Source: a virus. From it: DNA of 59,749 nucleotides. The notes under the pieces were generated by a model. It was given only the letters and a program-made list of their open reading frames with translations. It ran no database searches and was not told the origin of the DNA. This document shows positions 17,434 to 26,514 of the stretch, in pieces. The stretch's first letter is position 1. Each line of letters starts with the position of its first letter. The stretch lies in the IMG/VR virus record IMGVR_UViG_3300009376_000018, positions 1 through 59,749 of that record; one strand, given 5' to 3'. A program made the translations under genes and the position numbers.

Positions 17434-18339
17434 ATGTCAACATCTTTAGATAAGCTTAGACAGGCCATGGAGTCTGCATCACCAGCTCAAGGTGATAAAA
17501 AATCCTACAACGATGATAACTACTGGAAACCAGAACTCGATAAGAGTGGTAACGGATACGCAGTAGTTCGTTTCTTACCAACACCAAATGACGAAGAGAT
17601 GCCATGGGTATCTTACTTCGACCATGGATTTCAAGGTCCAGGTGGATGGTATATTGAAAAGTCTTTGACTACCATTGGTAAGAAAGACCCTGTAAGTGAC
17701 TACAACACCTCGTTGTGGAACACTGGAATAGAAGCAAACAGAGAATTGGCTCGTAAACAGAAGCGTAGACTTCATTATGTGTCAAACATTTATGTTGTTT
17801 CTGACCCTAAAAATCCTGATAATGAAGGTAAAGTGTTCATGTACCGTTATGGTAAAAAAATCTTTGAAATGCTAAAAGAGGCAATCTCTCCTGCATTTGA
17901 AGATGAGAGTGCTATCAATCCTTTCGACTTAAGAGAAGAAGGTGCGAACTTCAAAATCAAAATCAGAAAAGTAGATGGTTATTGGAACTATGACAAGTCA
18001 GAATTCGATGCCCAAGCACCACTTTTTGATGATGAAAATCAGTTGAATGATATAAATAATTCAACTCATTCATTAACGGATATAATTTCACCTGACCAGT
18101 TCAAGTCATATGAAGACTTGAAAACAAAACTCGATAGAGTTCTTGGACTATCAGGTGGCGTTGCAAACTCTACTGCTGAATCAGTTGCTGAAGACATGGA
18201 AGAAGTGCCATGGTCTGGCGTGAATACTGAAACAGTAGCAGAAGAACCTGTAATCTCATCAGCGGAATCTACATCGGTAGGTGATTCAGATGAAGATAAT
18301 GCGATGGATTACTTTAAGAAGTTAGCTACAGAAAGCTAA
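17434..18339 (+). CDS. gp32: gp32 single-stranded DNA-binding protein
   Basis: 301 residues, the T4 gene 32 family. It shows the N-terminal self-association segment (SLDKLRQAMESASP), the OB-fold core (NGYAVVRFLPTPNDEEMPWV, GPGGWYIEKSLTTIGKKDPV, LWNTGIEANRELARKQKRR, VFMYRYGKKIFEML, GANFKIKIRKVDGYWNYDKS) and a very acidic C-terminal tail (SVGDSDEDNAMDYFKKL) for contacting replication partners. The protein contains no Cys, so the zinc site of T4 gp32 is absent. A strong AAGGAG lies 7 nt before the ATG, in an AT-rich leader fit for autogenous control. The C-terminal linker is rich in Ala, Glu and Val. Confidence 0.93.
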   Translation: MSTSLDKLRQAMESASPAQGDKKSYNDDNYWKPELDKSGNGYAVVRFLPTPNDEEMPWVSYFDHGFQGPGGWYIEKSLTTIGKKDPVSDYNTSLWNTGIEANRELARKQKRRLHYVSNIYVVSDPKNPDNEGKVFMYRYGKKIFEMLKEAISPAFEDESAINPFDLREEGANFKIKIRKVDGYWNYDKSEFDAQAPLFDDENQLNDINNSTHSLTDIISPDQFKSYEDLKTKLDRVLGLSGGVANSTAESVAEDMEEVPWSGVNTETVAEEPVISSAESTSVGDSDEDNAMDYFKKLATES

Positions 18340-18765: not shown

Positions 18766-18890
18766 TGAAATTAATAAGAACTACAAAGCGTGAACTAAAG
18801 TCTCGTAAAGAAACACCTTCACATGCATCTACTCAGGTGCATAAAGATAAAACGAAAGTTATTCCTCGAAAGAGAAAGTATAAGAGTTAA
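18765..18890 (+). CDS. Small basic protein (41 aa)
   Basis: 41 residues with high Lys/Arg content (TTKRELKSRKE, then TKVIPRKRKYKS), likely to bind RNA or DNA. It begins in the S21 stop codon, so the two are co-translated. A ribosome-related role is conceivable but unproven. Its stop shares the palindrome TTAA at 18887-18890 with the stop of the convergent minus-strand gene. Confidence 0.5.
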   Translation: MKLIRTTKRELKSRKETPSHASTQVHKDKTKVIPRKRKYKS

Positions 18891-20953
18891 CCAAGTTTAC
18901 CAGAAGGAGTTGCTGTTGCAAACTCAAGGCCTCTATCAATCATATCCGGAGTCTTTTCATAGCGGACATCTGTATGTGATGATGAATCAATATTCATAGC
19001 TGTGTTGGAGCTCGAACCACCTGGTGTTTGGGCAGATGCCGATGCATCATCAACATCTGTCTGCAAGTTTGACATGTCAGCACCTTGTTCAACTGGTGGA
19101 AGGTTTTTGTATAAATTGTCAATCATTCCTTGAGCATCATCAATTTCTGAACCTTCAACTAGATTTGTAGCAACTGAATCTCCTGCCATACCGCCTGCTA
19201 CAGCAGAACCGATAACACCAAGCCCATAAACTGCCCAACCAAGTGGACCTGTAGCAAGCAATGGTGATAATACAGTTGCAGCTGTGGCAGCAGCTGCTAA
19301 TGAACCAGTACCTTTACCAACTGAACCTGCTCTATTAGCAGTATGAGCTCTTTGAATCAATTCCCATTCTTCATCAGTTATTGTTCTCATAGTGACATTA
19401 CCTGATCCATCGGGCATTGGTAGTTCTTCTCCTGATTCGTATGCCATTTTGATTCTTTCAAATTTTTCATTTTGGTCTGTCCAATCCATATAGATTTCTG
19501 CTCCTGCTCCAGCTGGACCCAAAGCTTTGGTTGCAGTGACTTTGGCGGCCTTTAAAAGATTGGTACCTGTAGCTCTAGCTACATCGTCACCAGCTGAAGT
19601 TGCAACTTTAGCCGCATCGTCAGCAAGACTAGTTGTTTTACTTCCAGCTTTAGCCGCATCGTCAGCAAGACCACTTCCAGCTTTAGCCGCATCATCAGCA
19701 ACTTCTGGCGCCAACCATCCAAATAGTCTTGGCATTTTTTCCGCAAGAGTTTTTCCCAAACCAGTGAATATGCCTGTTATCTTACTAATCGTTTTCTGAG
19801 CTGCAGTGGTAAGCCCAGCCCATGGATCCCAATCATCCCACTTCATCCAGAGCGTCATTAAACCAGCACCAACGAGAAGCCATGGTAGCAATGCCGCCAG
19901 AGAAGCAATCGCTTGTTTTTTCAGGTTTTTCAGTTTTAATTTATGTTCTATTACGGCATTCTTTAATCTTGTTTTATGATATTCTACTTCGCTTTGTTTT
20001 CTTTCTTCGTCTGCTTCTTTTTTATCTGATAATAAAGCTTTGCCATCAGGACCAAGAATAGATTTGGATTGTTTTTCTATTGCTTCCTTCACGCTAACAA
20101 CAAATAAAGGATCATCTTTAGTTCCAAGAGGACCGGTTCCTCCACCCACAGCATCTTTTTCATCATCGTCACTTTCGGTTTCACTGGATCCAAACCCAAA
20201 GAATCCTTTAACTGAACCCCACATATTTGAGAAGGCCTCTTTTGTTTTTTGCCATGTTTCTTTAACCCAAGCCATGGCTACATCCAATGCCTCTCCTACT
20301 ATAGGAATTTTTTTAATGAGAAAAACCAAACCTTTTAAAAGGGGTATAGCTATAAGTTTTGATAAAGTTTTAAGAGGTGCAATGACAAGCATTCTTAAAG
20401 CACCTGTGAGCACATTCACGCCAGCGACTGTTTTATGAACAGCTAATTTAAACAGGTTCATAGCTGGGCCAATAGCACCTATACCATTTGCCAGTTCTTT
20501 AACACCTCTACCAAATTGTTCGCTTCCTCCAATTGCAGTTTCCATAGGAGTTTTAGCAAACCAGGAGACTGTATCTCCAGTTTCTTCAAGGTTATTTCTA
20601 AGTTTCTTAAATGGTTTCGCTACTTCTTCAAACGCAAATCCTAAGCCTTCCTTTAATCCGCCCCAAAAACTTTTCTGGTCCTCGTTCTCAGGGTCTAAAT
20701 TCTTTTCTAATTTTTTACCTTGTTCAACACTAATTGCAGAGAAAACATTATTGTCTTTGAAAAGTTTATGAAGTTTTTCCATACCTTCTTTGCTTTCAGA
20801 GTAAGTTCTAAAAGTGTTTATATCAACATTTTGAGAATACTTATCAATCTCTTTGTGGTGACCTAATGAACTTGTGAGAGTATCGAATTGGGCTTTTTCG
20901 TGCTTAGTAGGATTTGGTAACCTTGTAAGTTCTATTGTATTATTAGTTGCCAT
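18887..20953 (-). CDS. Large virion protein, tape-measure candidate
   Basis: 688 residues. Charged helices fill about 1-150. Residues about 155-235 are long hydrophobic helices (VLTGALRMLVIAPLKTLSKL, IPLLKGLVFLIKKIPIVG). A helical linker, a second hydrophobic stretch (AIASLAALLPWLLVGAGLMT near 350), an Ala-rich repeat with three LADDAAK copies near 420-450, and a Gly/Ala-rich hydrophobic part near 560-600 follow. Helical proteins with internal hydrophobic segments just downstream of a frameshifting chaperone-like gene are typical tape measures. T4 gp29 (590 aa) has a similar size. The 608-residue coiled-coil protein at 31135 is a competing candidate. Its own late promoter (GATAAATA) lies 5 nt before the ATG. 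Confidence 0.55.
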   Translation of the reverse strand: MATNNTIELTRLPNPTKHEKAQFDTLTSSLGHHKEIDKYSQNVDINTFRTYSESKEGMEKLHKLFKDNNVFSAISVEQGKKLEKNLDPENEDQKSFWGGLKEGLGFAFEEVAKPFKKLRNNLEETGDTVSWFAKTPMETAIGGSEQFGRGVKELANGIGAIGPAMNLFKLAVHKTVAGVNVLTGALRMLVIAPLKTLSKLIAIPLLKGLVFLIKKIPIVGEALDVAMAWVKETWQKTKEAFSNMWGSVKGFFGFGSSETESDDDEKDAVGGGTGPLGTKDDPLFVVSVKEAIEKQSKSILGPDGKALLSDKKEADEERKQSEVEYHKTRLKNAVIEHKLKLKNLKKQAIASLAALLPWLLVGAGLMTLWMKWDDWDPWAGLTTAAQKTISKITGIFTGLGKTLAEKMPRLFGWLAPEVADDAAKAGSGLADDAAKAGSKTTSLADDAAKVATSAGDDVARATGTNLLKAAKVTATKALGPAGAGAEIYMDWTDQNEKFERIKMAYESGEELPMPDGSGNVTMRTITDEEWELIQRAHTANRAGSVGKGTGSLAAAATAATVLSPLLATGPLGWAVYGLGVIGSAVAGGMAGDSVATNLVEGSEIDDAQGMIDNLYKNLPPVEQGADMSNLQTDVDDASASAQTPGGSSSNTAMNIDSSSHTDVRYEKTPDMIDRGLEFATATPSGKLG

Positions 20954-20957
20954 TTAA

Positions 20958-21359
20958 CTATTTATCTCCTCCGAACGCTTTACCAGCCTCTGATATTCCA
21001 AATGCACCAAGTGTCACTACAACAAATGAAGTGTAGATTGTTTCGGAAACTTTTAGGTCTATGTCCCAAACTACTGCTGTAAGTAAGTCGGTGACACCAA
21101 AACACATCATTAGGAAGAATGAGATAAATCCTATAATAGCCTTTTCGTTTAAATCGTTTGAGTCTAAGAATAAGTCGATGAATTTTCTTTTAGGTGGTTC
21201 AACACCTTCTTTTAATTTTCTTGCATCATCTTTTAACTGTTTGATTACATCTTCTTGGTCATCGAGCTTGTCCAAGAGAGCCATATATTTTTCCAAGTCA
21301 ATTTCGACTTCATTTCTTTCATCTCTATCATCGTAATCTCTATCTCTATCTCTAGCCAT
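20958..21359 (-). CDS. Two-helix membrane protein (133 aa)
   Basis: 133 residues. An extremely charged N-terminus (MARDRDRDYDDRDERNEVEID) leads into a coiled-coil-like helix (KYMALLDKLDDQEDVIKQLK), followed by two transmembrane helices (IIGFISFFLMMCFGVTDLL and IYTSFVVVTLGAFGISEA) and a short tail. Size and topology suit a holin or a virion-associated membrane protein, but no holin family is recognised. It lies between the gp26 frameshift region and the tape-measure candidate and starts in the stop codon of the 46-residue ORF (TAATG). Confidence 0.6.
   Translation of the reverse strand: MARDRDRDYDDRDERNEVEIDLEKYMALLDKLDDQEDVIKQLKDDARKLKEGVEPPKRKFIDLFLDSNDLNEKAIIGFISFFLMMCFGVTDLLTAVVWDIDLKVSETIYTSFVVVTLGAFGISEAGKAFGGDK
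20959..20966 (-). promoter_or_regulatory. T4-type late promoter GATAAATA (minus strand)
   Basis: Read on the minus strand: GATAAATA, exactly 5 nt, then the ATG at 20953. It overlaps the end of the upstream 133-residue gene. Confidence 0.5.
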
Positions 21360-21499
21360 TATCTTCTCCTGTTGGCAGCTGCTTTCTGCCGTTCTTTCTC
21401 TTCTTCAAGATATTGCATCAGTAAGTTAATGTATATATCCCTTTCCCATGGAATCATGTTCTCCAATTCTGTAAGTGAATACTTGTGGTGTTGCATCAT
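21359..21499 (-). CDS. Tail-chaperone-like C-terminal extension ORF (46 aa; -1 frame open from gp26)
   Basis: A 46-residue ORF if started at its first ATG. The frame is open further upstream to 21553, exactly in the -1 frame of the gp26 gene at its terminal T-run. It would then add 64 residues to gp26 (234 + 64 = 298). The sequence HKYSLTELENMIPWERDIYI, then LLMQYLEEEKERQK, resembles the short second domains of phage tail assembly chaperones, whose members often carry a PxERD-like motif and a charged helix. Free translation from the ATG is possible but has only a weak upstream ribosome binding site. It overlaps the membrane-protein gene by TAATG. Confidence 0.6.
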   Translation of the reverse strand: MMQHHKYSLTELENMIPWERDIYINLLMQYLEEEKERQKAAANRRR

Positions 21500-21549
21500 T
21501 TGAAAGTTTGTTTGGTAATAGTTAAACAAACTATCATGCGAAAGGGTTA

Positions 21550-22254
21550 CTAAAAAAAATTTTGTAAACCTTGAATTACATTATTAGATACTTCTCCACA
21601 TTTATCGCATTTGTATTCCATCTCTCTTTTCAAAGTAGGCATTGAATCAAAATACTTAGTAATCTTTTCGAATTGATTAACAGTAAGATTCTCTATAAAT
21701 TCATCTATTTCTGAATCTCTATGTTCTGCCATTTCGTAGATGTTTTCTTCATCATATATTCTAACCATACAAGTTCGAAGAATTGGTTTAATCATTTCGA
21801 CTTCATCTAGTCCTTCTACTTCGTATATTAGTTGAGAACCTGGTGGTGACAATTCAACCATAAGATGTTCATTAAGTTCAATCTTATTGTCTAGTATGTT
21901 TGAGGTATCAACTTCAACTGTTGTTAAGTCTAACTCCTGAAAACCTAGTCCATCACAACCATCTTTCTTACACATTAAAGGAATTTTGGCAGTTTCTCCA
22001 ACTGATTTAGTTCTAATTTGTAAAAATAAGTATTCTAAATCAACTAGAGGTAGTTTTGAACCATCTACCTTTCCTTCTGTGACTGATTTAATCATTGCCA
22101 TAATTGCATCAAAAATCGCAGTCGCATTTTCACTTTCTCTTGCAACTAACAGATGATTCTGTTCTTTTACAAGAAAGGGTCTATAACTCACTTCAATTCC
22201 TGATACAGGTAGCTCACATTTATATGTTGGAGCCTTTTGTATTGGTAAACTCAT
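21550..22254 (-). CDS. gp26: gp26-like baseplate hub subunit / assembly factor
   Basis: 234 residues of the T4 baseplate protein gp26 family. Features: N-terminal beta region (YKCELPVSGIEVSYRPFLVK), helical part with IFDAIMAMIKSVTEGKVD, a first Cys pair (MCKKDGCDGLGF), a long acidic middle, and a C-terminal second Cys pair (YKCDKCGEVSNN) that completes a probable four-Cys zinc ribbon. In T4, gp26 takes part in hub assembly. The gene ends in a run of eight T on the coding strand just before the stop, where -1 slippage would fuse a 64-residue extension. It follows gp54 in a minus-strand structural operon. Confidence 0.8.
   Translation of the reverse strand: MSLPIQKAPTYKCELPVSGIEVSYRPFLVKEQNHLLVARESENATAIFDAIMAMIKSVTEGKVDGSKLPLVDLEYLFLQIRTKSVGETAKIPLMCKKDGCDGLGFQELDLTTVEVDTSNILDNKIELNEHLMVELSPPGSQLIYEVEGLDEVEMIKPILRTCMVRIYDEENIYEMAEHRDSEIDEFIENLTVNQFEKITKYFDSMPTLKREMEYKCDKCGEVSNNVIQGLQNFF
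21553..21559 (-). other. Candidate -1 programmed ribosomal frameshift site
   Basis: On the minus strand the gp26 frame ends AAT TTT TTT TAG. The heptamer T-TTT-TTT allows P- and A-site tRNAs to slip one base back with full re-pairing, directly before the stop. After slippage the frame reads TTA GTA ACC and stays open through 21359. Confidence 0.6.
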
Positions 22255-22276: not shown

Positions 22277-23320
22277 CTATCCAAAAAGACCGCCTAGTGT
22301 TGCTAAACGGTCATTAAATCTTTGAAGACTGTTATTTGCACTGTTGCCACCTTTTCGGAGGTTGGTGACACTAGCCCATACATCTAACCATCTTCTTCCT
22401 TTATTTATACCACTTACAGGATTTGGATTTGAGTATTCAGATTCCCAAGTCCTAAAAGCGAATGTAGTCTCAAATCGCATCAATTGGTCACTATTTTCGG
22501 CACTTAATTCCATAGGGGCAAATGAAATTGGATATGCCTCATGTATTCTATACTGTAGTGACTTCTTATCAGACCTTGTAATTTGTTTTACAACTATTTC
22601 ACCCACATAGTTATCGTAGTATTCGAACTGTGGATTAATTGAATTGCCTACTCCAGTATCGCCCATTTTTGATGATAGGTTTTTGTGCTGTTCAGCAAGT
22701 TCTGGCATTTTACTTCTTAAGTCAGGATCATTTCTGACTGCCTCTTGTAATTTCTCGTTCTCTGCTATAAGGCCTCCAAGTTTCTTTTGTTCTGATGCTA
22801 CGCCTGATTGACCCATAAATATTGCACTTTGCCATGCTTCAATTATGAATCTATCTGCAAATGATGAATCGCACACGAATGTAAATGATACTTCTTGTCC
22901 ATCCATTCCTAACATATATGGCATTTTTCTTGTTGGTCCATATTCAGACCAGTCTGCTGTTTCTAATTGACGACCAGGTAATGATGCAGTTATACATCTA
23001 ACACCTTCTAAGTTTAACCCTAACTTAGGACAATAGAAGTCTACGGTGTATCTATTTGGTCTCGCCCCTTGGTCGAATTGATATCTTAATTTATCTATAT
23101 TTAATCTAGCGGTCTTATTTTTACCCATATGGGATCCACTTTTAGCAGCCTCAGCAGCAGCTGTTCTTGCAGCTCTTCTATTCCTTCTACCTTCTTGTCT
23201 TGCTTGTCTACGAGCTTGTCGTTGTTTTCTTCTTCTATAACTACTTGAACCAAGTTGTTTGTTTAGTTCTTCTATTTTCGCCGCCGTGGCCTCTATTTCT
23301 GCTCTATATTTAGTTACCAT
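22277..23320 (-). CDS. gp54: gp54-like baseplate-tail tube initiator
   Basis: 347 residues with the tube-like fold pattern shared by T4 gp19, gp48 and gp54: RPNRYTVDFYCPKLGLN, VRCITASLPGRQLETADW, VSFTFVCDSSFADRFIIEAW, then a variable insert, YVGEIVVKQITR, YRIHEAYPISFAPMELSAEN and FETTFAFRTWESE. The first 75 residues are a very basic Arg/Gln/Ala-rich helix (RKQRQARRQARQEGRRNRR), unusual and perhaps needed to interact with DNA or neighbouring proteins. gp54 starts tube polymerisation on the baseplate. I assign gp54 rather than gp48 because a gp48-like gene is at 26556; the two could be swapped. Confidence 0.72.
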   Translation of the reverse strand: MVTKYRAEIEATAAKIEELNKQLGSSSYRRRKQRQARRQARQEGRRNRRAARTAAAEAAKSGSHMGKNKTARLNIDKLRYQFDQGARPNRYTVDFYCPKLGLNLEGVRCITASLPGRQLETADWSEYGPTRKMPYMLGMDGQEVSFTFVCDSSFADRFIIEAWQSAIFMGQSGVASEQKKLGGLIAENEKLQEAVRNDPDLRSKMPELAEQHKNLSSKMGDTGVGNSINPQFEYYDNYVGEIVVKQITRSDKKSLQYRIHEAYPISFAPMELSAENSDQLMRFETTFAFRTWESEYSNPNPVSGINKGRRWLDVWASVTNLRKGGNSANNSLQRFNDRLATLGGLFG

Positions 23321-23923: not shown

Positions 23924-24775
23924 TCAGAAAGTATAGATTTTGTAGTTTTCTTTTTCTATAGTTTCTACCGAATTGGGATAAAGTTCAAGAATTGTGGAAA
24001 GGTCGGCGAGTTTTAGGGTATAGCCATTTTTAGTCTCAATTGCCACACCTGTTGAACCTTCTGTTCTAACATAGGGCATTATATCATCTGCTCCGACTCC
24101 AATTAAAACGGGTAGTTTATTATCAAACATAGATTTGATATCTTCTGTTGAATTAACAATAGTCGGTCTATCTTCTTGCATATGCATCTCTAATATCTTA
24201 CCATTAACACTCGCAATAAAGAATGTCTTGTCTTTTACTTTCATGAAGATGTTTTTCCACTCTTCAAATGTTAATGGTGTTCTATCAGAGAATGTTTCGT
24301 TGGTATCCCACATAACAACATCATCTTTTAATGTTTTTAAGTACCATAATGCGTATATTCTTGACATTCCTGGATGAATGAACATATGTTTGCCTTCAAT
24401 GACGCCTTGAATGGTGGAATCGAGGCCAACTGTTCGATATTGGTCGATTAAATACATAATTTTGCAACAATGATAGACTTTATTCTGCTTTTCCTTCATA
24501 GTTTCTTCGGAAAATGTATTTTTATCGATGGTTGGGCCATCTATACCTTCGAGTAAGGTTACGACATAATCCACCAATCTACCGTCATTATATCGAGTAT
24601 TGTTTTCTCCGATTAACCCCTTTTCGACACAATCACCTAGATTAATAAGATACGGTTTAGACTTGTTTTCACATATCCAATTAAAGTATTCTTCTGCTTC
24701 AATTAGGGTTTCGGGTTCTTCGGATATAAGAAAGTGTTTAAACTCTTCATACGGACTTTTCTCATCAGTGAACAT
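23924..24775 (-). CDS. Hypothetical protein (283 aa)
   Basis: 283 residues with no family recognised. The N-terminal half is acidic and helical (EEFKHFLISEEPETLIEAEE); the middle has IEGKHMFIHPGMSRIYALWY, which looks like a conserved active or binding site. The C-terminal half is alpha/beta (FFIASVNGKILEMHMQ, LPVLIGVGADDIMPYVRTEG). It overlaps the KdsB gene by 11 nt in the same direction, so it may belong to the same sugar pathway (inference), for example as a substrate-modifying or transfer protein. Confidence 0.6.
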   Translation of the reverse strand: MFTDEKSPYEEFKHFLISEEPETLIEAEEYFNWICENKSKPYLINLGDCVEKGLIGENNTRYNDGRLVDYVVTLLEGIDGPTIDKNTFSEETMKEKQNKVYHCCKIMYLIDQYRTVGLDSTIQGVIEGKHMFIHPGMSRIYALWYLKTLKDDVVMWDTNETFSDRTPLTFEEWKNIFMKVKDKTFFIASVNGKILEMHMQEDRPTIVNSTEDIKSMFDNKLPVLIGVGADDIMPYVRTEGSTGVAIETKNGYTLKLADLSTILELYPNSVETIEKENYKIYTF

Positions 24776-25517
24776 TGTTTAGAAATTTCTCCACTCGTTT
24801 TAAATCTTCGATTGTATCTACGGAAAGACCTTCATCTTGAACTTCAACCATTCTAACTGCATAACCATTTTCAATGTATCTTAACATCTCTACTGATTCT
24901 GCTTTCTCATTTTCACCCACAATCAATTCAGGAAACATCTCTAACATTTGTCGATTGAAAACATACAAACCCAATTGTTGTTTAAATGGTGTTTCTTCTT
25001 TTTGATGATATGGTATTGCAAGTCTAGAATAGTATATTGCATTACTGTTCAAGTCGGTGATAACTTTAACCACATTCTTATCTTGTAGTTTATTACTGTT
25101 GTTGACATCGACATATGCATTTGATACACCTATATCTCTATTGTGACTCAATATAAGACTATCAATTGCATCTGGATCGATAAGTGGTTCATCGCCTTGA
25201 ATGTTTACGAAGATATTACCATCTAGCAGCTCAAGTGCTTTCGCACATCGGTCTGTTCCACTTCGTACATCATCTTCAATAACTATACATCTCATTTCGT
25301 TTTTAGAACAGTAGTTAGCGATTCTTTGGTCGTCTGTAAGAATAACAACAGTATCTAAATGTTTACAACTACATGCACGGTCATAAACTCTTCGTATCAT
25401 GGGAACACCATTAATGAGTGCTAGGGGTTTACCTTCGAATCGAACCGAACTCCATCGTGCAGGTATTAAACCTACAGTGAGATTAGTTCCTTTATCTGGC
25501 TTATTGAGTGTTCGCAT
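24765..25517 (-). CDS. kdsB: CMP-Kdo synthetase (KdsB-type cytidylyltransferase)
   Basis: 250 residues from the ATG at 25517; the frame extends further to 25580 inside the upstream gene. It has the KdsB signature: VGLIPARWSSVRFEGKPLAL (about 15-34, CTP-binding Arg and Lys), VVILTDD, VRSGTDRCAKAL, NIFVNIQGDEPLI (about 105-117, metal and sugar site), KVITD, YYSRLAIP, LGLYVFNRQML and a final SVEMLRYIENGY and SVDTIEDL. The enzyme makes CMP-3-deoxy-manno-octulosonate from Kdo and CTP for LPS or capsule. Its place inside a baseplate operon, beside a HAD phosphatase, is unusual and suggests a phage-directed change of host surface sugars. Confidence 0.88.
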   Translation of the reverse strand: MRTLNKPDKGTNLTVGLIPARWSSVRFEGKPLALINGVPMIRRVYDRACSCKHLDTVVILTDDQRIANYCSKNEMRCIVIEDDVRSGTDRCAKALELLDGNIFVNIQGDEPLIDPDAIDSLILSHNRDIGVSNAYVDVNNSNKLQDKNVVKVITDLNSNAIYYSRLAIPYHQKEETPFKQQLGLYVFNRQMLEMFPELIVGENEKAESVEMLRYIENGYAVRMVEVQDEGLSVDTIEDLKRVEKFLNNVH

Positions 25518-26077
25518 GTCACATTTCCATAACCATAATTTGCGTGTATGAATTTTATATTCGCCCTTTGAGCAGCCCAATAATCAACATTCATATCTCC
25601 TACATAGACTGTATCTTGTGGGTCAGCATTGCACATAGCCATACAAAAGAGTAGTTGGTCTGGTGCAGGTTTGCCTCTTAGACCTTGTTTGGGCGAACAT
25701 ACAAACTCAAATTTTGGTAAATTCTTTATCATTACCTGAGTTCTATCTGCATGTTTAGAGGTAACAATTGCAATCTTGTTACCTTCTTTTTTTAATTTAC
25801 GCAATGTTTTAACTGCGCCTGGATATATAGTGATTAAATCTTGATTGTCTAAAGATGCACCACCATAAGTATCGTAAATTTCTTTGTGTTCTTCTTCTAT
25901 GCCGATTGAAGTAAGAATATCGTTGAATGGCAGTCCAACATGTGCAAAATAGTCTGTAAAACTTGGTTCTAGACTATGTACTATCTTACATCTGTTCCAA
26001 GATGCTTCCATGTTTCTTTTAGAATCAATTAAAACACCATCTAAATCGAAGATATAAAGTTTGGGGAGTTCGTTCAC
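25472..26077 (-). CDS. HAD-superfamily phosphatase (PGP/PGMB-like)
   Basis: 201 residues with all HAD motifs: FDLDGVLIDS (Asp11 nucleophile and Asp13), IVTSKHAD (Thr106-Ser107), GKPAPD (Lys136), and YVGDMNVD (Asp161). The insert after motif I is a helical cap, as in phosphoglycolate phosphatase/beta-PGM relatives, unlike the capless KdsC. Next to KdsB it could still serve Kdo-phosphate or another sugar phosphate (inference). It is coupled to gp4 by a 4-nt overlap and overlaps kdsB by 46 nt. Confidence 0.82.
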   Translation of the reverse strand: MNELPKLYIFDLDGVLIDSKRNMEASWNRCKIVHSLEPSFTDYFAHVGLPFNDILTSIGIEEEHKEIYDTYGGASLDNQDLITIYPGAVKTLRKLKKEGNKIAIVTSKHADRTQVMIKNLPKFEFVCSPKQGLRGKPAPDQLLFCMAMCNADPQDTVYVGDMNVDYWAAQRANIKFIHANYGYGNVTCEHSISQIKELISL

Positions 26078-26514
26078 TTTTTAGGTACTAAATGTTCCTC
26101 TGTTAAAATTCTAAAACCTAGTTTTCTTTCATTGCAGAAAGCTTCTGCGGCTTCGAATTTTGCTTGGTTGGTTATATAGTTAGATACTTCGGTGATATAT
26201 CTCTTAGTTCTTCTTTTGGGTTCTTTTGGGGGTGAAAGATATTTTTTTGGTTTAACTTCTATGATTTCACGAATAATTTTAGCGTTTTTGTCTTTGTATT
26301 TAATATAAAAGTCGGGAAAGTATCTATGAACTTTCTTATCTATAGGTGAACGATAAGGTATTATGATTTCTTCACTTCCCCATTCTAGTATATTTGCGTT
26401 ATTATCACAATAAACCATAAATCTTCTCTCCCAAAGAGAGCGATAATAGATTTTTGTAGGGTCTCCTTTATATTTTTTATAGTTCTTTGGTTTGAACCTT
26501 CCACTGTATGACAT
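26074..26514 (-). CDS. gp4: gp4-like head completion protein (nuclease fold)
   Basis: 146 residues, the T4 gp4 (gp50) head completion family. It starts MSYSGRFKPKNYKKYKGDP, with YRSLWERRFMVYCD, WGSEEIIIPYRSP, RYFPDFYIK and IIEVKPKK. The PDFY strand (Asp68) and EVKPKK (Glu86-x-Lys88), with Glu29 in the first helix, form the TnsA/PD-(D/E)XK-like active site of this family. gp4 acts on packaged heads to prepare the neck for tail joining. It is the first gene of the minus-strand unit, and its ATG overlaps the plus-strand late promoter of gp48. Confidence 0.88.
   Translation of the reverse strand: MSYSGRFKPKNYKKYKGDPTKIYYRSLWERRFMVYCDNNANILEWGSEEIIIPYRSPIDKKVHRYFPDFYIKYKDKNAKIIREIIEVKPKKYLSPPKEPKRRTKRYITEVSNYITNQAKFEAAEAFCNERKLGFRILTEEHLVPKK

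Follow-up and report, generated by a model that had tools for sequence, protein, structure and literature searches.

Towards the 3' end of gp26, the marine virus analysed here carries a long run of T, and the reading frame one base back stays open well past the gp26 stop. This raises the question of whether gp26 and the small open reading frame that follows it are two genes or one gene decoded in two ways. We addressed it in the window, i.e. the whole 59,749-nucleotide stretch of the IMG/VR record. On the minus strand, gp26 extends from 22254 to 21550 and encodes 234 residues ending in Asn-Phe-Phe; its final codons are CAA AAT TTT TTT TAG TAA. These include a slippery heptamer, T TTT TTT (21559 to 21553, minus), in the gp26 frame and directly followed 3' by the 0-frame stop TAG (21550 to 21552, minus), such that eight consecutive T occupy 21559-21552. 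When base 21553 is re-read, the -1 frame gives LVTLSHDSLFNYYQTNFQMMQHHKYSLTELENMIPWERDIYINLLMQYLEEEKERQKAAANRRR and then a stop, i.e. an extension of 64 codons (21553 to 21359, minus) closed by a TAA at 21361-21359. The last base of this TAA is shared with the next gene, which starts at 21359. Joined to gp26, the extension makes a fusion of 298 residues, in which peptides across the junction would contain QNFFLVTLSHDSLF. The end of gp26, the slip site, the 64-codon frame and the length of the fusion had been proposed in a sequence-only reading of this DNA, and every coordinate that we checked was accurate.

Many stops interrupt the -1 frame upstream of the heptamer, so that a shift is possible only close to the T-run. 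Downstream of the site, the +1 frame is closed. The X XXY YYZ heptamer lies in the upstream frame and inside the overlap of the two frames. We scanned the whole window for such heptamers in the last 20 codons of open stretches of at least 60 codons, requiring a -1 extension of at least 40 codons. This returned only two candidates, the gp26 junction and an AAAAAAG at +11807. The frame of the latter is unremarkable and we dropped it as meaningless.

Both pieces can be assigned to T4 families. The gp26 protein matches PF12322 (T4_baseplate; 2.9e-47, 161.6 bits for a cut-off of 24.5) and positions 5-232 of the 282 in phrog_150 (2.4e-48). The -1 peptide matches phrog_634, the family of gp51, the baseplate hub assembly catalyst (E = 1.1e-29), as well as positions 235-278 of the gp26 family profile phrog_150 (5.5e-7). 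Hence, gp26 and the -1 peptide cover neighbouring stretches of a single profile. T4 gp51, which has 249 residues, covers positions 13-280 of the 282 in that profile (2.6e-84), and its residues 1-201 match PF12322. By these matches, T4 gp51 is itself gp26-like and bears the tail as an in-frame continuation. In a three-way alignment, the -1 extension of the window aligns with the C-terminus of T4 gp51, T4 gp26 ends just past Phe-Phe, and the window fusion is homologous to T4 gp51 over its full length. The added part had been likened to the second domains of tail assembly chaperones (TAC); it turns out to be a homologue of the C-terminal portion of T4 gp51. In T4, gp26 and gp51 are separate genes on opposite strands. 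We found no second copy of the gp26 family in the record, which is a fragment of 59,749 bases. Residues 216-219 of the window gp26 (21598-21609, minus) include a C-x2-C pair (KCDKCG) that is also present in T4 gp26 and in KVP40; NPKT-like residues replace it in most marine relatives.

We gathered 221 gp26/gp51 loci from IMG/VR, from contigs of bacterial and archaeal genomes and from GenBank phages, of which 217 have both pieces. Removal of near-duplicates (more than 90% identity) left 174 non-redundant loci. The gp51 tail is in the -1 frame in 216 of the 217 loci, and the sole frame-0 locus is that of T4 (gp51). All 216 loci of the -1 type have T TTT TTN at the identical junction, as do all 174 non-redundant ones, among which TTTTTTC is the commonest variant (118), followed by TTTTTTT (45), TTTTTTA (10) and TTTTTTG (1). 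The second slip codon is therefore TTA (Leu) in 10 loci and TTG in one, i.e. the residue changes and the slippery run is kept. At the first slip codon, 174 of 174 loci use TTT, compared with 73% TTT among the other Phe codons of these genes. From codon usage, a T just before this codon would be expected in 111 loci, and all 174 have it. Conservation of the junction over these relatives is far beyond chance, although the loci share ancestry, and the counts thus measure conservation and not independent trials. The slippery signal is very probably real. The base at -16 from the heptamer is also T in 174 of 174 loci; this may reflect coding for a hydrophobic residue whose codon has a middle T.

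We then considered elements that could stimulate the shift. The window has a Shine-Dalgarno-like CAAGG (21569 to 21573, minus) 9 nt upstream of the heptamer, which is weak (-3.3 kcal/mol). Most relatives have a strong one, GA[AG]GG, at -14 to -10 from the heptamer. Across loci, the energy of pairing between this element and the anti-SD is -5.95 kcal/mol, compared with -4.67 kcal/mol under synonymous codon randomisation (z -14.5), and Glu codons at the site are GAG in 73 of 116 cases, compared with 26% elsewhere. Downstream, the window has a predicted hairpin of 9 bp, AGTTTGTTT/AAACAAACT (21532 to 21505, minus), which begins 20 nt past the heptamer and whose contribution is uncertain; the 70 nt after the heptamer fold at -11.0 kcal/mol (z -3.05). 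When the folds of single loci were compared with dinucleotide shuffles, the mean z was -1.57 at +3 and -0.12 at +100, and the fraction of loci with z < -2 was 44% and 2%, respectively. RNAalifold over the 174 loci revealed no consensus downstream helix. A broader proposition, which we regard as evenly balanced, is that the gp26/gp51 shift relies on a dnaX-like composite signal, i.e. GA[AG]GG about 9 nt upstream combined with T TTT TTN and often with local downstream structure, across nearly all sampled T4-like phages outside the T-even branch, while T-even phages make the two forms from two duplication-born genes that lack the heptamer.

The -1 frame is under coding constraint already upstream of its usual first ATG. 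Among the non-redundant loci, the commonest first ATG of the gp51 frame lies 18-19 codons downstream, and conserved -1 residues sit 5' of it. Over codons 3-17, the -1 frame is free of stops in all 159 loci, whereas this stretch is interrupted in 111 and 150 of them when read in either of the other frames. Divergence in these codons is 0.35, 0.28 and 0.57 for the three codon positions, i.e. highest at the third. Mean Shine-Dalgarno energies across loci are -0.1 at the first ATG of gp51, -5.1 at gp26 starts and -0.9 at random sites. Within the window, the gp26 ATG and the next gene both have good ribosome-binding sites (-7.3 and -7.4 kcal/mol). We rejected three possible free starts for gp51, TTG 21529 and ATG 21499 and 21496, all of which lack one; the frame opened by the ATG at 21499 corresponds to the free product of 46 residues named in the sequence-only reading. 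Taken together, the stop-free codons 3-17, the excess of third-position divergence and the lack of a gp51 ribosome-binding site indicate that translation enters the -1 frame at the slip site and does not begin at an internal start. The expectation of the sequence-only reading that relatives would keep the T-run and an open -1 frame without a free start signal was borne out in the 174 non-redundant loci, with no exception.

The T TTT TTY junction with gp51 at -1 is present in KVP40, Vibrio phage D480, phiAS5, Sinorhizobium phage phiM7, Stenotrophomonas phage Moby, Rhizobium phage LG08 and Pelagibacter phage HTVC008M. Two phages, Serratia phage 3M (Ackermannviridae; L226 3250-3270) and Vibrio phage K471 (L228 3205-3225), have a gp26 homologue whose gp51-like tail is also at -1, with GTTTTC or CTTTTC in place of T TTT TTN. 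These may use another slippery site or mechanism. T-even relatives have a long in-frame gp51; matches spanning 80% or more of T4 gp51 occur in 1334 GenBank records. In this group the heptamer is missing at the homologous place of gp26 (T4, Acinetobacter phage PhT2, phiAS4 and phiP4-3) and at the in-frame junctions of gp51 (T4 and Krischvirus). The T-even genes are thus a natural control for the frameshift type. An unrooted tree separates T-even gp51 (100/100), T-even gp26 (96/92) and gp26 of the frameshift type (98/94). Such a topology is compatible with a single duplication in the T-even branch, a direction that we infer, the tree being unrooted.

Several other explanations could account for the locus. 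The gp51 frame could be an ordinary separate gene that is read either from a start of its own or through termination-reinitiation behind gp26, with the T-run as a by-product of two conserved Phe codons. GenBank records do annotate gp26 and gp51 as separate genes, and in a minority of loci an ATG is found no more than a few codons from the gp26 stop (e.g. TAATG in KVP40). Yet, the first ATGs lack ribosome-binding sites, and the usual first ATG is preceded by conserved residues of the -1 frame. Conserved Phe codons would not explain why the heptamer is kept where Phe is replaced by Leu, nor why the T before the Phe pair and the TTT first codon are invariant beyond codon usage. Furthermore, the heptamer is absent where gp51 is a long gene of its own. 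We thus regard two separate genes as improbable.

The same two proteins could also arise without ribosomal slippage, if the RNA polymerase added or dropped a U at the T-run. Eight consecutive T in the window, and TTTTTTT in 45 of the 174 loci, would suit such a process, but 118 of the 174 have T TTT TTC, and a run of only six T speaks for tandem tRNA slippage. The heptamer also keeps an invariant phase with respect to the gp26 frame, and the upstream Shine-Dalgarno-like element makes sense for ribosomes only. These observations make transcriptional slippage very unlikely. Finally, an error in sequencing or assembly might have split one continuous gene, given the homopolymer at the site. Such an error is refuted by the finding of the same frame relation in 216 loci from many assemblies, cultured GenBank genomes included, and at sites with no homopolymer longer than six, and we give it almost no credence. 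We consider it highly probable that gp26 and the downstream small open reading frame are one tail assembly chaperone gene decoded in two ways, of the lambda G/GT type. The short chaperone (TAC-N, G-like) would be gp26 and the extension (TAC-C, T-like) the gp51 domain.

Directly upstream of gp26 lies a protein of the tail tube family (22277 to 23320, minus; phrog_45, 1.4e-28). Downstream is a protein of 133 residues (20958 to 21359, minus) with its own ribosome-binding site and one clear hydrophobic segment; it had been called a membrane protein from the sequence, and it has no significant family match. It is followed by a protein of 688 residues (18887 to 20953, minus), a candidate tape measure by position and size. 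The order is therefore tail tube, TAC, 133-residue protein and, two genes downstream of the TAC, candidate tape measure. HTVC008M has the same order, with a 687-residue 'putative tail tape measure' at the same place, to which the 688-residue protein shows no significant sequence similarity. The earlier suggestion of a tape measure at this place is hence plausible from position and size, but sequence searches gave no family match for this protein. Beside the tail genes, overlapping open reading frames at 24765-26077 (minus) encode a cytidylyltransferase (PF02348, 5.9e-42) and a HAD-type hydrolase (PF13419, 1.5e-30), which may be sugar-nucleotide (KDO-type) enzymes. At 26074-26514 (minus) lies a TnsA-like endonuclease N-terminal domain (PF08722, 7e-23), possibly a head completion protein of the T4 gp4 type given its context. 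A gp32 single-stranded DNA binding protein (PF08804, 2.2e-38) is encoded at 17434-18339 (plus), in the orientation opposite to that of the tail module.

For gp26, AlphaFold gave a confident model (pLDDT 90). Its best-scoring named matches in a fold search of a viral library are baseplate hub proteins of the gp26 type, and a fold search of the PDB gave nothing significant. Sequence searches against solved structures retrieved leucine-rich repeat proteins alone (E of at least 0.002), which we judged spurious. In lambda gpGT, the tape measure is bound by the G part, and the T part brings in the tube protein (PMC5009743). The gp26 and gp51 parts of the window protein may divide labour in a similar manner. 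A chaperone role for the tail or tape measure is well supported by the homology with T4 gp26/gp51, the gene order and the G/GT architecture. The sequence-only reading presented such a role as a recasting of gp26, but an earlier list of hub assembly chaperones includes both T4 gp26 and gp51, with gp51 absent from the particle (PMC3004832). In the window phage, we infer both this role and the slippage in the host from sequence comparisons. Most ribosomes would stop at TAG and release the short gp26 of 234 residues. A minority would slip back by a single base while both tRNA-Phe sit on U UUU UUU, and would thereby produce the 298-residue fusion with the gp51 domain at its end. By analogy with lambda gpG/gpGT, the tape measure protein would then be coated with many short copies and a few long ones, and the gp51 domain would recruit the tail tube or hub protein during assembly.

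The lambda slippery heptamer is GGGAAAG. As in lambda gpG/gpGT (Levin 1993; Xu 2004, 2013, 2014), the window locus would give a short chaperone and a minor -1 fusion, and it lies between a gene of the tail tube family and the tape measure candidate, the latter placed by position. Unlike in lambda, the gp26 module is larger, and we found no sequence relation between gpG/gpGT and the window gp26. Among solved TACs, HK97 gp13 (2ob9) is a weak match to the predicted gp26 fold (prob 0.21, E ~4, rmsd 3.2, ~55 columns). The dnaX signal of E. coli combines a slippery run with an upstream Shine-Dalgarno-like element and a hairpin (PMC3711429). It resembles the present one in the internal element upstream of the heptamer and, in many relatives, in the downstream structure. 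It differs in that it belongs to another gene, its heptamer is A AAA AAG, and the gp26/gp51 loci lack a conserved downstream stem. The TAC of phage Adele, among Vandenendeviridae and Andersonviridae (PMC12846349), also has a conserved poly-T -1 site at the end of the TAC-N gene and a downstream open reading frame mis-annotated as a separate gene, but these are other phage families, with GTTTTT instead of T TTT TTN.

The sequence-only reading knew of no described case built on a T4-type gp26, but its novelty is not supported. Vladimirov, Gautam & Davidson (2022, Virology 566:9-15) are cited in the PRFect paper (PMC10885494) for the presence, in T4-like phages, of a short TAC gene together with a long, fused one. 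The 2025 Adele paper (PMC12846349) credits them with TAC-N/TAC-NC and poly-T -1 slippery signals in T4-like TAC-N genes. The T4-like TACs concerned are of the same family (PF12322/phrog_150 with a phrog_634 tail), with the same short and long forms. On this account, the frameshift TAC of T4-like phages is already described and the window is a further example of a known switch.

The gp51 of cyanophages and of marine vibriophage has been described as reduced, with about 200 residues missing (Sullivan et al., PMC3037559). Since gp51 is in the -1 frame of gp26, the 'missing' residues would be gp26 itself, joined by the frameshift. In many marine T4-like genomes, gp26 and gp51 are entered as separate genes, and these annotations need correcting. 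For the window itself, the result pins down where the tail assembly module lies and lends support to the large gene nearby as a candidate tape measure. T4 makes the two forms from two separate genes, whereas the window phage would use one gene and a frameshift. T-even and other T4-like phages thus provide a natural experiment in which a short and a long chaperone are obtained either by duplication or by frameshifting.
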